Shown: in pieces, positions 26,230 to 35,406 of the stretch
How the letters are laid out: every line of letters begins with the position of its first letter
How positions within the stretch are numbered: the stretch's first letter is position 1
Assembly: GCA_009839485.1 (NCBI GenBank)
Contig: VXPQ01000020.1
Location: 1 to 39,052 of the forward strand
Direction of reading: 5' to 3'
Source: Bacteroidetes bacterium SB0662_bin_6
GTDB taxonomy: Bacteria > Bacteroidota > Rhodothermia > Rhodothermales > VXPQ01
Length of the DNA stretch: 39,052 nt
Notes under the pieces: generated by a model
The model's input: the letters and a program-made list of their open reading frames with translations, nothing else
Told to the model about the DNA's origin: nothing
The model's database searches: none
Translations under genes and position numbers: made by a program

Positions 26230-26232
26230 TTG

Positions 26233-27681
26233 ATGTCTGATCTCCCCGAATCTCCGCCGACAGGCGACCTGGAATCCGAAGAATTCCGTCGTGCGGGGCA
26301 CGCCGTCATAGACTGGATCGCCGACTACATTGCACATCCGGAACGGCTGCGTGTACAGCCCGATGTCGAGTCCGGGGCGCTGCTCGACAAGTTGCCGGAG
26401 GAAGCGCCTGTTCACCCGTCTCCGTATGGCGATATTCTCGCCGATTTCGAGCACACGATTCTGCCCCATGTGATGCACTGGAATCATCCCGGTTTCATGG
26501 GATACTTTTCCGCAGGCGGGTCGTCTCCGGGGGTGCTGGCGGAAACCCTGAGCGCTGCGCTGAACAACGTCGGCCTGATGTGGAATTCGTCGCCTGCCCT
26601 GACCGAACTCGAAGAAAGAACATTGCAGTGGCTGGCCCGGCTTTTGGGGCTGCCGCTGTCCTGGTTCGGCATGATTCATGGAACGGCTTCCACGGCCAGT
26701 CTTCATGCGATGATCGCTGCGCGCGAATTTGCCGCCTCCAATGCCGAAAAGGCAGGATCGACGCTGGATCTGAACCGCCTTGTCATTTATACGTCCGAGC
26801 ACGCGCACTCCTCTGTCGAAAAAACCACGGCGGCCCTTGGCCTCGGATGGGAAGCGTGTCGCAAGATCGCGGTGGACGAACGGTACGCCATGAAGCCCGA
26901 TGCGCTGCGCGAGGCGATCGCTTCGGACCTGCGGAACGGTTTTGCTCCCATTGCCGTCGTCGCCACGGTGGGGACTACGGGGTCTACGGCGGTGGATCCG
27001 GTTCCCGCCATTGCAGATATTGCCGCCGAACATGCGCTCTGGCTGCACATCGATGCGGCCTATGCGGGCGCATCCGCCATGCTTCCGGAGATGCGCCATC
27101 ACTTTGCAGGGTGCGATCGCGCCGATTCGTTCGTCGTCAATCCGCACAAGTGGATGTTCGTCCCCATGGACCTGACGGCATTCTATACCGCGCGCCCGGA
27201 ATACCTGCGCAATGCGCTCTCGCTTGTGCCGGAGTACCTGCGGAGCCGCGAATATTCCCGCACCGTCAATTATATGGAGTACGCCGTCCCGCTGGGGCGC
27301 CGGTTTCGCGCCCTCAAACTCTGGTACGTACTGCGCTCATTCGGTTCCGAACGCATTGCGGACGCCCTGCGCGAGCACATCCGGCTTGCCCGCTTGCTTG
27401 CCGGCTGGGTCGATGCTTCTCCTGACTTCGAGCGCATGGCCCCGACCGATTTTTCGCTTGTCTGCCTGCGTTTCCGGCCCGAGGGAGCCAGTGAAGAAGA
27501 GACCGATGCCGCCAACGAGCGCCTCATGCACGCGATTAACGCAACCGGCGAGTTCTTCCTTTCCCATACCAAATTGCGGGGACGGTACACGATACGGGTT
27601 GCCATCGGGAATCTGCGTACGACGGAAGAGCATGTCCGCCGTCTTTGGGAACTCCTGCAGGGGAAAGCCATCTATGCATAA
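26233..27681 (+). CDS. Aromatic-L-amino-acid decarboxylase family (PLP)
   Basis: A 482-residue group II pyridoxal-phosphate decarboxylase. The cofactor lysine is K306 in NPHKWMF; D274 in HIDAAYAG binds the pyridine nitrogen, and H190 in TSEHAHSS stacks on the ring. The N-terminal FRRAGHAVIDWIADYI and WNHPGFMGYFSAGGSSPG match aromatic decarboxylases (DOPA, tyrosine, tryptophan) rather than glutamate decarboxylase. The product would be an aromatic amine and CO2, in the cytoplasm; some plant relatives make aldehydes instead, and the residues seen here do not exclude that. ATG 26233 is preferred to the TTG just before it. The stop codon (27679-27681) lies in a nested hairpin. Confidence 0.93.
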   Translation: MSDLPESPPTGDLESEEFRRAGHAVIDWIADYIAHPERLRVQPDVESGALLDKLPEEAPVHPSPYGDILADFEHTILPHVMHWNHPGFMGYFSAGGSSPGVLAETLSAALNNVGLMWNSSPALTELEERTLQWLARLLGLPLSWFGMIHGTASTASLHAMIAAREFAASNAEKAGSTLDLNRLVIYTSEHAHSSVEKTTAALGLGWEACRKIAVDERYAMKPDALREAIASDLRNGFAPIAVVATVGTTGSTAVDPVPAIADIAAEHALWLHIDAAYAGASAMLPEMRHHFAGCDRADSFVVNPHKWMFVPMDLTAFYTARPEYLRNALSLVPEYLRSREYSRTVNYMEYAVPLGRRFRALKLWYVLRSFGSERIADALREHIRLARLLAGWVDASPDFERMAPTDFSLVCLRFRPEGASEEETDAANERLMHAINATGEFFLSHTKLRGRYTIRVAIGNLRTTEEHVRRLWELLQGKAIYA

Positions 27682-27721
27682 ATTGCATAAAAAAGGAGGG
27701 CATTATGCAAAAAATGCATAG
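27672..27721 (+). promoter_or_regulatory. Nested hairpin with exposed Shine-Dalgarno
   Basis: Outer stem CTATGCAT (27672-27679) / ATGCATAG (27714-27721), a symmetric AAA/AAA internal loop, inner stem TTGCATAA (27683-27690) / TTATGCAA (27703-27710), both perfect, and a 12-nt loop containing AGGAGGG. It overlaps the decarboxylase stop codon. As DNA it could be a double dyad operator; as RNA it could be a translational or attenuation structure. Confidence 0.6.
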
Positions 27722-27725
27722 ATGA
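27705..27725 (+). CDS. Possible six-codon leader ORF (MQKMHR)
   Basis: ATG at 27705 lies 5 nt after the loop AGGAGGG and encodes MQKMHR before TGA at 27723-27725. The start codon is in the closing half of the hairpin. It lies 117 bp before the YceI start. Translation is unproven; the good ribosome-binding site and the hairpin make a leader peptide possible. Confidence 0.25.
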   Translation: MQKMHR

Positions 27726-27842
27726 CGATTTTTTGCGAGGCTGTCTGGAAAATGGTGTAGCCTTATGTTCGCAGAACCGCACAGCCCGAATGCGGTAGAA
27801 CGCACTCATTTATTTCGTTTGCTCACAGCCCTTTTTCGCACC

Positions 27843-28460
27843 ATGAAACCTGTTCGTTTTCTTACCGTCGCCATTTTGGCCACCGCTTTCCTGCTGACCG
27901 GCGCAGTGCTTCCGGTTCATGATCGCGCCGAGGTCGTCACCTTCCATCCGGACAAGACCCATTCCAACGTCGGGTTCAAGGTGCGTCATCTCGGTATTTC
28001 CAATGTGCGCGGCGCTTTCGGCGAGTACGAAGCCACGGTACAGTTCGATCCGGAAGACCTGAGTACGCTCTCGGTGGACGCGACCATTCAGACAAGCAGC
28101 GTTGACACCGGGAATGAGCGCCGCGACAACCATCTTCGCTCGGACGATTTTTTCAATGCCGAGGAATTCCCGGAACTGCGGTTCGTGAGCAAGGAGGTTC
28201 GCGATCTCGACGGCGGCGAATTCAAACTCGTCGGCGATCTGACCATCCGGGACGTTACGAAGGAGATCATGCTGGACGCCGAATTTCTGGGCATGGCCGC
28301 AGGTCGAGAGGGACGTAAGGCCGGGTTCGAAGCGAGGACGACGATCAACCGCTTCGAGTACAATCTGAAATTCGACGCCCTGACGGAAACCGGCGGGCTG
28401 GTGGTAGGAAGCAGCGTGGAGATCATTCTGGAAATGGAACTCGACGAACAAGCGGGATAA
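27843..28460 (+). CDS. YceI family protein
   Basis: A 205-residue exported YceI-domain protein. The signal peptide is MKPVRFLTVAILATAFLLTGAVL, which fixes the start at ATG 27843 (the frame is open upstream to 27765). The lipocalin-like barrel contains the family patterns HSNVGFKVRHLGISNVRG, FDPEDLSTLSVDATI, NERRDNHLRSDDFFNAEEFPELRF and GDLTIRDVTKEI. YceI proteins bind long isoprenoids or other lipids in the periplasm and are linked to polyisoprenoid transport, stress or base induction. It stands alone here, with its own leader region and the DoxX gene 155 bp later under separate control. Confidence 0.95.
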   Translation: MKPVRFLTVAILATAFLLTGAVLPVHDRAEVVTFHPDKTHSNVGFKVRHLGISNVRGAFGEYEATVQFDPEDLSTLSVDATIQTSSVDTGNERRDNHLRSDDFFNAEEFPELRFVSKEVRDLDGGEFKLVGDLTIRDVTKEIMLDAEFLGMAAGREGRKAGFEARTTINRFEYNLKFDALTETGGLVVGSSVEIILEMELDEQAG

Positions 28461-33012: not shown

Positions 33013-35406
33013 ATGGTTTACAGTGTGATCCGATACATCCCCTATATCTTCCTGCTCTCGACCGGCGTCGCCTGGACGGCTGCCGCGCAGGTGCGCATCG
33101 GGGGAACTGTTCTGGACGGACAAACCGGTAGCCTCCTGTCCGGCGCGCATGTGTTCACGGAAGACATGGCGCAGGGCGCCATTACGAATGCGGAGGGGCG
33201 TTTCGTCCTCGAATTGTCTGCGCTTCCTGAAGCTATCGTCGTCCAGCACCTCGGGTATGCTCCTCGTGTATTCCCGGTGCCCCCGGAAGCCCCGGAATCG
33301 CTTGTCATCCGGCTGACCCCTATTGTGATTCCGCTGGAGGAGGTGCTCGTGTCCGGCGAGGGTTTTGCGTCCAGCCTGATGGAGCAGGTGATCCGCCGCA
33401 AACAGCGCATGTTCGCGGACATATCGTCGCTTCGCATGGTGGGCCAGACCCGGCTCATACTCGAAGACGACGAACGCATCGTTCATCTCGGCGATACCGC
33501 ATTCGACCTGCTGTGGCTTTATGGCGAGACCGAACCAACGGACCGCACGCATCATACCTACCGCGCCGAGGTGAGCGCCGTAAGCCGAACCGGTGCGTGG
33601 GACGAGGAACTTCCCCTGCCCGCTCCGCACGACGTGGCGAACCTGTACGAGGACTTCGTGACCGTTCAGGGGCAGCGGATGATCGGGCCCACCCATCCCG
33701 ACGCACTGGAACACTATGTCTTCCGGGTGGCTGCGGAGCGTACGCTCGGCGACCGCACGATCTATGATCTGAACGTTTCCCCCATCGGCGAAGAGGAGGC
33801 TGCGTTTATAGGCCAGATTTCCGTGATGGACGAGGAGTTCGTTCTGCTGGAAGCGCGCCTTTTCCCGGCGCGGCACGTGGTTTTTCCCGCTCCGACATCC
33901 GGCTGGAATGTCCGGTACGTGCAGCATTTCCGGGAGGTGACCGACGGATTCTGGGCCCCTGTCCATCTCGACATGGAGGGGACGCTCCGCGCCGCTGTCG
34001 GTATGCAGCGTCTGCGTACGGTGAGGTTCAGCCGGCGCACCCTGCTGGCGGGGCACACCGCCAACATTCCGGAAGAGCAGCTTGCATCGGTAACCACGCC
34101 CTGGTCCGACCCGGATTTTCGATACGGGCAGGTGCTGATGCCGATGACCGCGCGCGAACTGGACGCGGTCGCGGATCTTCGCGCCGCCAACCTGACATTG
34201 AGCGAAGCGTTTCCTCCCGAACGGCGGGCGGGGCGTTTTATCGGTTTTCTGGATCCGGAGATTCCTGGCCAACTGCAATGGCCCGTGGTCATGGGATACC
34301 GGTTCAAATTCCGGTATAACCGGGTGGATGGCCTGTTGAGCAGCGTAGGGAACGAACTGGACCTGTTTTCCGGCATCCGTATGTCGTGGCGTCTCGGTCA
34401 GGCGACCGGACTCGAGCAGACCCGGTCCTATGTTTCCCTGGCGAGACCGCTTGGCGAACAGTTTCTTTTTCGTATTTCGCGTGAACGGGATGTTGCTTCA
34501 CAGGGCGCCTGGTCCGGACACAGCGAGGCGCTCGCTTCAGTGCAAGCGGCGCTCGGCGGACAGGATTACTTCGATTATTTCCGACGGACCCGGTACGGAG
34601 CCGGCATGGAAGCGAGATGGCGGGGACTGCATTTCACCGCCGGCGTCGAGCAGGAAAAGGCAGAATCAATAGACCGGCAGGTGGCCCGTTCCTGGCCGTA
34701 CGCACAGACCTTTCGGGCCAATCCGCCCGTTCGGGACGGTACGTTCCGGTCGGTGTATGCTACTCTTGCGTTGCCTCGCCGCGCAACCCGAACCATCCGG
34801 TCCGCTGTGCTTCGCGTCGAGCACGGTTCGCCGCAGCGGCTTGCGGGCAATGCGGCATTCACCTTGCTGGGAGGCCATATCGACCTTGCGCAACCCACCC
34901 TGCACAGGCATCGCCCGACGCCCGCGGGCCTGCATATCCGCCTGCAAGGCGGTACGTCCTTCGGCGATCTTCCGCCGCAGCGGGCCGTGCTGCTCGATAC
35001 CGGCCTCGAACTTTTCGACGGCCTCCGGCTGAACCGGCATCATGCCTTCCGTTCCCTGCACGGACGGCCGTTGCAAGGAGCGCGGTACGCCGCCGTCTTC
35101 TGGCGACACGACTTCACGACGCTCCCGTTCGAATGGGTCCGGCTGTGGCCGCTTGTCCGCCTGCGCATGGGGATTACCCTGTTCGGGGCCCACGGGCGTG
35201 TCCGGGGACAGCCTGCCGCGCCTCCTGACGAAGGGTTTTCCTGCATCCCCCCGGGGTATTGCGGGGATAATTCCCTCCACGAGGTCGGAGTTTCCCTGAC
35301 CCGGATCGGCGGCACGCCGTTCCGCATGGACATCACCCGTCGCCTCGGGGATTTCGGGGATATTCCCGGTTCCCGCGTGGTGCTGGGGTTCGGGGTGGAG
35401 TTGTGA
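33013..35406 (+). CDS. DUF5686 outer-membrane protein with CarboxypepD-like domain
   Basis: A 797-residue outer-membrane protein. Order: signal peptide (1-25, AAAQ), a carboxypeptidase-like regulatory beta-sandwich (about 28-100, GTVLDGQTGSLLSGAHVFTED and NAEGRFVLEL), then the DUF5686 region with an N-terminal soluble part and a C-terminal barrel. The family is common in Bacteroidota and of unknown function; a TonB-independent envelope role is likely as no plug domain is seen. It faces the TonB gene tail to tail. Parts of its 3' half recur downstream: 35001-35142 at 38010-38151, and 35301-35331 at 36341-36371. Confidence 0.82.
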   Translation: MVYSVIRYIPYIFLLSTGVAWTAAAQVRIGGTVLDGQTGSLLSGAHVFTEDMAQGAITNAEGRFVLELSALPEAIVVQHLGYAPRVFPVPPEAPESLVIRLTPIVIPLEEVLVSGEGFASSLMEQVIRRKQRMFADISSLRMVGQTRLILEDDERIVHLGDTAFDLLWLYGETEPTDRTHHTYRAEVSAVSRTGAWDEELPLPAPHDVANLYEDFVTVQGQRMIGPTHPDALEHYVFRVAAERTLGDRTIYDLNVSPIGEEEAAFIGQISVMDEEFVLLEARLFPARHVVFPAPTSGWNVRYVQHFREVTDGFWAPVHLDMEGTLRAAVGMQRLRTVRFSRRTLLAGHTANIPEEQLASVTTPWSDPDFRYGQVLMPMTARELDAVADLRAANLTLSEAFPPERRAGRFIGFLDPEIPGQLQWPVVMGYRFKFRYNRVDGLLSSVGNELDLFSGIRMSWRLGQATGLEQTRSYVSLARPLGEQFLFRISRERDVASQGAWSGHSEALASVQAALGGQDYFDYFRRTRYGAGMEARWRGLHFTAGVEQEKAESIDRQVARSWPYAQTFRANPPVRDGTFRSVYATLALPRRATRTIRSAVLRVEHGSPQRLAGNAAFTLLGGHIDLAQPTLHRHRPTPAGLHIRLQGGTSFGDLPPQRAVLLDTGLELFDGLRLNRHHAFRSLHGRPLQGARYAAVFWRHDFTTLPFEWVRLWPLVRLRMGITLFGAHGRVRGQPAAPPDEGFSCIPPGYCGDNSLHEVGVSLTRIGGTPFRMDITRRLGDFGDIPGSRVVLGFGVEL

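Follow-up and report, generated by a model that had tools for sequence, protein, structure and literature searches.

The window, by which we mean the whole 39,052-nucleotide stretch of DNA that was analysed, carries an element at 27673-27720, at the junction of genes for a pyridoxal-dependent decarboxylase and a YceI-family protein. The junction is made up of the following features:

26230-27681, + strand: pyridoxal-dependent decarboxylase gene (PF00282, Pfam E 8e-96); its final codons and stop codon overlap site 1
27673-27689, no strand assigned: candidate operator site 1, TATGCATAAATTGCATA, a palindrome of T-N11-A / ATGC-N7-GCAT form and an exact match to the genus-wide motif
27690-27703, no strand assigned: 14-bp spacer AAAAAGGAGGGCAT, which sets the two sites 31 bp apart
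27704-27720, no strand assigned: candidate operator site 2, TATGCAAAAAATGCATA, an exact match to the genus-wide motif
27705-27725, + strand: six-codon ORF (MQKMHR-stop), its ATG at 27705 lying inside the site 2 palindrome
27843-28460, + strand: YceI-family gene (PF04264, Pfam E 3e-46), starting 122 bp after site 2

The first-pass annotation had read this element as a nested hairpin of two perfect 8-bp stems separated by an AAA/AAA internal loop, with AGGAGGG as the apical loop. Folding of 27662-27735 (-22.3 kcal/mol, z -4.9; none of 200 shuffles folded as well) returned the inner 8-bp stem and the AAA/AAA loop, together with an outer stem of 11 bp, the extra base pairs of which fall at the altered decarboxylase junction. 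The AGGAGGG word is present, in a computed fold whose apical loop is 12 nt. What had been overlooked is that the arms constitute two complete 17-bp palindromes in tandem, TATGCA-N5-TGCATA, 31 bp apart, and this arrangement is enough to allow the nested fold, since the two outer arms can pair with each other and so can the two inner ones. The six-codon ORF is present as described, as is the overlap with the decarboxylase stop codon (TAA, 27679-27681, within the element), which is found in this genome only among the six genomes of the genus; the five relatives have 34-82 bp between the end of the decarboxylase and the element. Elsewhere in the window there is a lone imperfect palindrome without a partner (TATGCAGCGTCTGCGTA, 34002-34018), where 0.75 such matches with ≤2 mismatches are expected by chance.

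The exact palindrome was detected in 8-26 copies per genome in all six genus genomes (G000 to G005) and its reversed control in none, so that its symmetry exceeds what chance would provide. Pairs with ≤3 mismatches numbered 10, 24, 25, 12, 13, and 11 in G000, G001, G002, G003, G004, and G005, respectively (control, 0), and there were none in the other 108 of the 114 genomes of the order that were searched. G003 and G004, each a single contig, have their pairs scattered chromosome-wide. Sequences were retrieved for every pair in G000, G003, G004, and G005; for G001 and G002 the set consists of the exact-palindrome clusters listed. The decarboxylase-yceI locus, the only one found by protein (the other copies were mostly selected by motif), holds its sites in all six genomes, with four sites in G001 and G002. 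It is one of ten loci common to at least four genus genomes: decarboxylase-yceI, adk, and a gene beside a ROK kinase in six; the gene of a LysR-type regulator (LTTR), ruvA, and exonuclease I-like, egtD-like, and gyrA genes in five; and genes for a TPR protein and a hydantoinase-like protein in four. Except for the LTTR and the window genes, which were identified by Pfam, these names are our reading of the translations, with gene borders from a custom codon model. The contexts of the pairs are mixed, some being between convergent genes, some between divergent genes, and others at gene ends or inside coding sequence, and the neighbouring genes form no obvious regulon.

Gene calls and translations place the pairs at two loci within coding sequence in 6/6 genomes, with 2-3 mismatches: adk (L170, L171, L154, L163, L098, and L121) and the gene beside the ROK kinase (L112, L129, L155, L162, L096, and L122). 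G004 also has an identical pair sequence twice (at 41161 and 44625; L043 4550-4597 and 5438-5755, and L145), close to a second C-terminal decarboxylase fragment (91% identity); this is probably a recent local duplication.

Over 94 distinct pairs, taken in both orientations and selected by motif, the base frequencies are 1.00 for T3 and 0.99 for A15. These two bases lie in ATGC-N7-GCAT and give the site the T-N11-A form that is the signature of LysR-type sites. In pairwise comparisons within nine locus groups, the core TATGC/GCATA differed at 13/900 positions compared, position 6 at 28/180, the central five bases at 91/450, the spacer at 184/630, and the flanks at 359/900. Both the core conservation and the base frequencies are inflated, because most copies were found by the motif itself. 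The nine groups exclude adk and the ROK-kinase neighbour (both in coding sequence) and the hyu group, the never-compared thiD-, folB-, def-, and methyltransferase-like groups, and the copies L095, L115, L101, L114, L113, and L124 of the arrays, along with L106. When the adk, ROK-neighbour, and hyu groups were added, half-sites differed at 65/1824 positions. At the decarboxylase-yceI locus there were no core changes in 120 comparisons covering both sites among G000, G003, G004, and G005.

The distance between the two sites is essentially fixed. At each of the 38 loci retrieved through one exact palindrome, the partner lay exactly 31 bp away with ≤3/12 mismatches. In a larger set, to which the 31-bp pattern itself contributed some loci, 80 distinct cases had this same distance and one had 32 bp. 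Spacings were followed out as far as 149 bp, and the longer ones, which are not independent of the 31-bp spacings, fall near multiples of 10.45 bp. In four-site arrays the gaps between pairs are 63, 63, 53 (52 in an orthologue), 73, and 83 bp. Their register at a 10.5-bp pitch has a P of about 1e-4 with five loci and 1e-3 with four, in a test that omits between-cluster distances (2036 bp in L100, 529 bp in L116) and counts L105 with its look-alike L097; the series 53, 63, 73, 83 fits a 10.0-bp step equally. Of the two clusters so separated in L100 and L116, one is the LTTR gene's pair and the other an array of four sites beside a thiD-like gene. The constant 31 bp and the gaps in register put the two presumed dimer sites of a pair on the same face of the helix, and the occurrence of arrays in the 31-bp register suggests that local duplication lies behind them.

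The LTTR gene among the shared loci (G000:C39:4470-5366) encodes a 299-aa protein with LTTR domains by Pfam. In all five genus genomes in which the gene was found (G000 to G004), a pair is located 22-29 bp before its start codon, with 2 mismatches in site 1 of this pair. PF00126 matches number one each in G001 to G004 and three in G000; in G005, which is 87% complete and has 11 pairs, there was no match to PF00126 or to the LTTR. The best NCBIfam score of the protein is to AlsR (250 bits, below the cut-off of 430), and in the PDB it matches BenM chains and the 1ixc/7d98 group, which we take to be CbnR.

The pattern TGCAT-N16-ATGCR-N5-YGCAT was sought in 16 genomes, in which the control gave 0-1 matches. 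It has 11-34 strand matches in each genus genome, one match each in G024, G067, G086, and G089, and none in G014, G036, G018, G008, G009, or G079. All four matches outside the genus are just upstream of an LTTR homologue of 51-55% identity, and these genomes, which belong to two other families, are the sole non-genus genomes among the 244 searched to have a homologue in that range. These sites have the sequence GATGCR-N5-YGCATC, and a TGCATT half-site lies at a distance of 31 bp, site 1 being no more than a half-site in the outgroups. Scores for the pair at the outgroup loci L178, L192, L193, and L194 were reached by 1, 11, 3, and 1 of 300 shuffles, respectively, and at L192 and L194 the scoring chose another register; at these two loci a divergent SnoaL-like gene (named by eye) is on the other side of the site. 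G014, whose homologue is 40% identical, has a variant at 30-bp spacing (2/300 shuffles) that the exact pattern missed, and none of 11 homologues at 30-39% identity had a pair better than 32/300 shuffles. The candidate operator is thus found at the promoter of its presumed cognate gene in 5/5 genus genomes, and as a half-pair in the 4/4 non-genus genomes with a 51-55% homologue. We regard these single outgroup sites as the decisive result.

On this basis we consider it very likely that the element is the two-dimer operator of an LTTR, and that it has multiplied in the genus, in part with a REP-like repeat. A dual operator for a dimeric regulator was among the proposals of the first-pass annotation, and it draws support from the tandem palindromes, the fixed 31 bp, and the presence of a pair at the LTTR gene. 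Counting against it are the mixed gene contexts with no obvious regulon, the want of an LTTR match in G005, and the two mismatches in site 1 of the LTTR gene's own pair. The 299-aa LTTR is the most likely regulator; it may bind as a tetramer and has the same pair before its own start codon. A single autoregulatory site at the LTTR gene, as seen in the genomes of two other families, would be the ancestral state, from which the operator would have multiplied to 10-25 pairs per genome, some of them in phased arrays of four or five sites and some carried along with the REP-like repeat. At the decarboxylase-yceI junction, the bound LTTR may control yceI, the likeliest local target, although we hold this assignment tentatively, at somewhat under an even chance, and an effect on the decarboxylase is conceivable as well. 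A scan of 27600-27900 returned no sigma-70-type site; promoters of this bacterial group may differ. A bolder proposal is that the autoregulatory LTTR became a genome-wide DNA-architectural or global regulatory protein in the genus, both a mobile REP-like repeat and duplication in helical register having multiplied its operator, with phased tetramer arrays at gene ends, inside genes, and at promoters. We think this unlikely.

The strong predicted fold would also suit an RNA element working through the nested hairpin, whether a leader-peptide switch, as the first-pass annotation had suggested, an attenuator, a terminator, or a processed 3' end. Consistent with this are the six T at 27729-27734, about 4-5 nt past the predicted stem, and a T-rich stretch 8-12 bp beyond the element in the family (T about 0.4), which a terminator would also have and which is kept at the decarboxylase-yceI locus in G003, G004, and G005. 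In these same genomes the Shine-Dalgarno (SD) word and short ORF are largely kept, the ORF reading MQKMHR in G005 and G003 and MQKTHR in G004, and the SD-like word being retained in G005 and G004 but not in G003; the frame that starts at site 2 in G001 and G002 is longer and has no SD. However, the arms do not covary. Covariation in related genomes had been proposed as the check, and among the 94 distinct pairs, which are phylogenetically non-independent, the nested pairing has undergone 128 one-sided and 11 two-sided changes, with 3 compensated versus 5.6 expected in shuffles. For pairing within each palindrome, 7/8 two-sided changes were compensated, against a shuffle mean of 8.2. The arms therefore change one-sidedly, with compensation no more frequent than in shuffles. 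Also against an RNA element are the absence of any Rfam match at gathering score, the presence of an SD-like word in the spacers of only 6/188 strand-oriented elements, so that an SD with a short ORF is not a conserved trait of the family, the location of some elements between divergent genes, and the register of the gaps. We take the short ORF as a by-product because the palindrome itself supplies the ATG and most of the codons, and the SD-like word in AAAAAGGAGGGCAT is probably incidental. The terminator scan found none, though it considered loops of 3-8 nt only and hence was blind to this 12-nt loop; an intrinsic terminator here seems to us unlikely. A switch with a leader peptide was set aside on the uncompensated arm changes, the Rfam result, and the rarity of the SD, and an RNA element of any of these kinds seems to us very improbable.

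A dispersed mobile repeat of REP, REPIN, or MITE type, whose palindromes serve their own spread with no regulator involved, would account for pairs in all gene contexts. The G005 pair flanked by ribBA- and coaE-like genes sits in a segment of about 190 bp. G003 lacks this segment at the exact site, G004 and G000 have different short sequences in its place, and part of it recurs elsewhere in G003 and G004. Furthermore, L126, L130, and L158 share a tail that matches an abundant REP-like family, and L218/L219 have a variant of it. Since the segment partly recurs and the tails match, it seems that a repeat carried some of the pairs along. Nevertheless, the whole unit is not conserved between copies, as the spacer and flanks diverge and only a subset shares the tail; copies at different loci mostly have just the half-sites in common. 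The single operator-like copies at the LTTR gene in four other genera and the gaps in register speak against such a repeat, and the REP-like sequence GCGGACTTAATCAGAGTATCC has no copy in the window. Such a repeat is in our judgement improbable as the explanation of the element. As an observation in its own right, GCGGACTTAATCAGAGTATCC represents a second dispersed REP-like family in G000 to G005, often in facing copies, with 83, 94, 100, 309, 241, and 113 strand matches (≤3 mismatches) in G000, G001, G002, G003, G004, and G005, respectively. A different dimeric or oligomeric protein, such as an NtrC-like or Lrp/AsnC protein, could instead use the element as its operator or enhancer, a reading considered from geometry only. 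These families also use palindromes about three turns apart, so the geometry fits them too, and the register of the arrays is in accord with such a protein. The outgroup match at the LTTR gene in 4/4 non-genus genomes with a match, and the T-N11-A form typical of LTTR sites, argue against it, and we rate it as quite improbable.

The proposed two-dimer LTTR operator links a DNA motif with its likely regulator through comparative evidence alone. It also offers a view of a regulon before and after growth, with one site at the regulator gene in four genomes of other families versus 10-25 dispersed pairs in the genus, which makes it testable how a regulator passes from a local to a global role. A more general caution is that tandem operators can mimic RNA switches. 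Literature searches returned nothing for LTTR sites three helical turns apart or for the motif string, and among the matches listed for regulon growth by mobile repeats none bears on it.

The paired sites can be compared with three known systems. Like REP, BIME, and REPIN sequences, they are dispersed, palindromic, mostly intergenic, and genus-restricted, and some copies ride with a REP-like family; unlike them, mainly the half-sites are conserved, the geometry is that of an operator, and other families have a single copy, at the gene of the regulator. NtrC-type paired enhancer sites are 17-bp N5 palindromes about three turns apart, as are the sites here, which differ in that their gene linkage is to an LTTR. 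With the paired recognition and activation sites of LTTR operators (CbnR, BenM/CatM, AlsR, OxyR) they share T-N11-A palindromes, two dimer sites in register, and a position before the LTTR's own gene. PMC11329422 describes a full-length CbnR tetramer solved with a 55-bp DNA fragment and gives about 60 bp of DNA as proposed for CysB. In contrast to LTTR operators, the present pairs consist of two exact and nearly identical sites, are in some cases grouped in arrays of four or five sites, and number 10-25 per genome, dispersed in mixed contexts that include gene ends and coding sequence.
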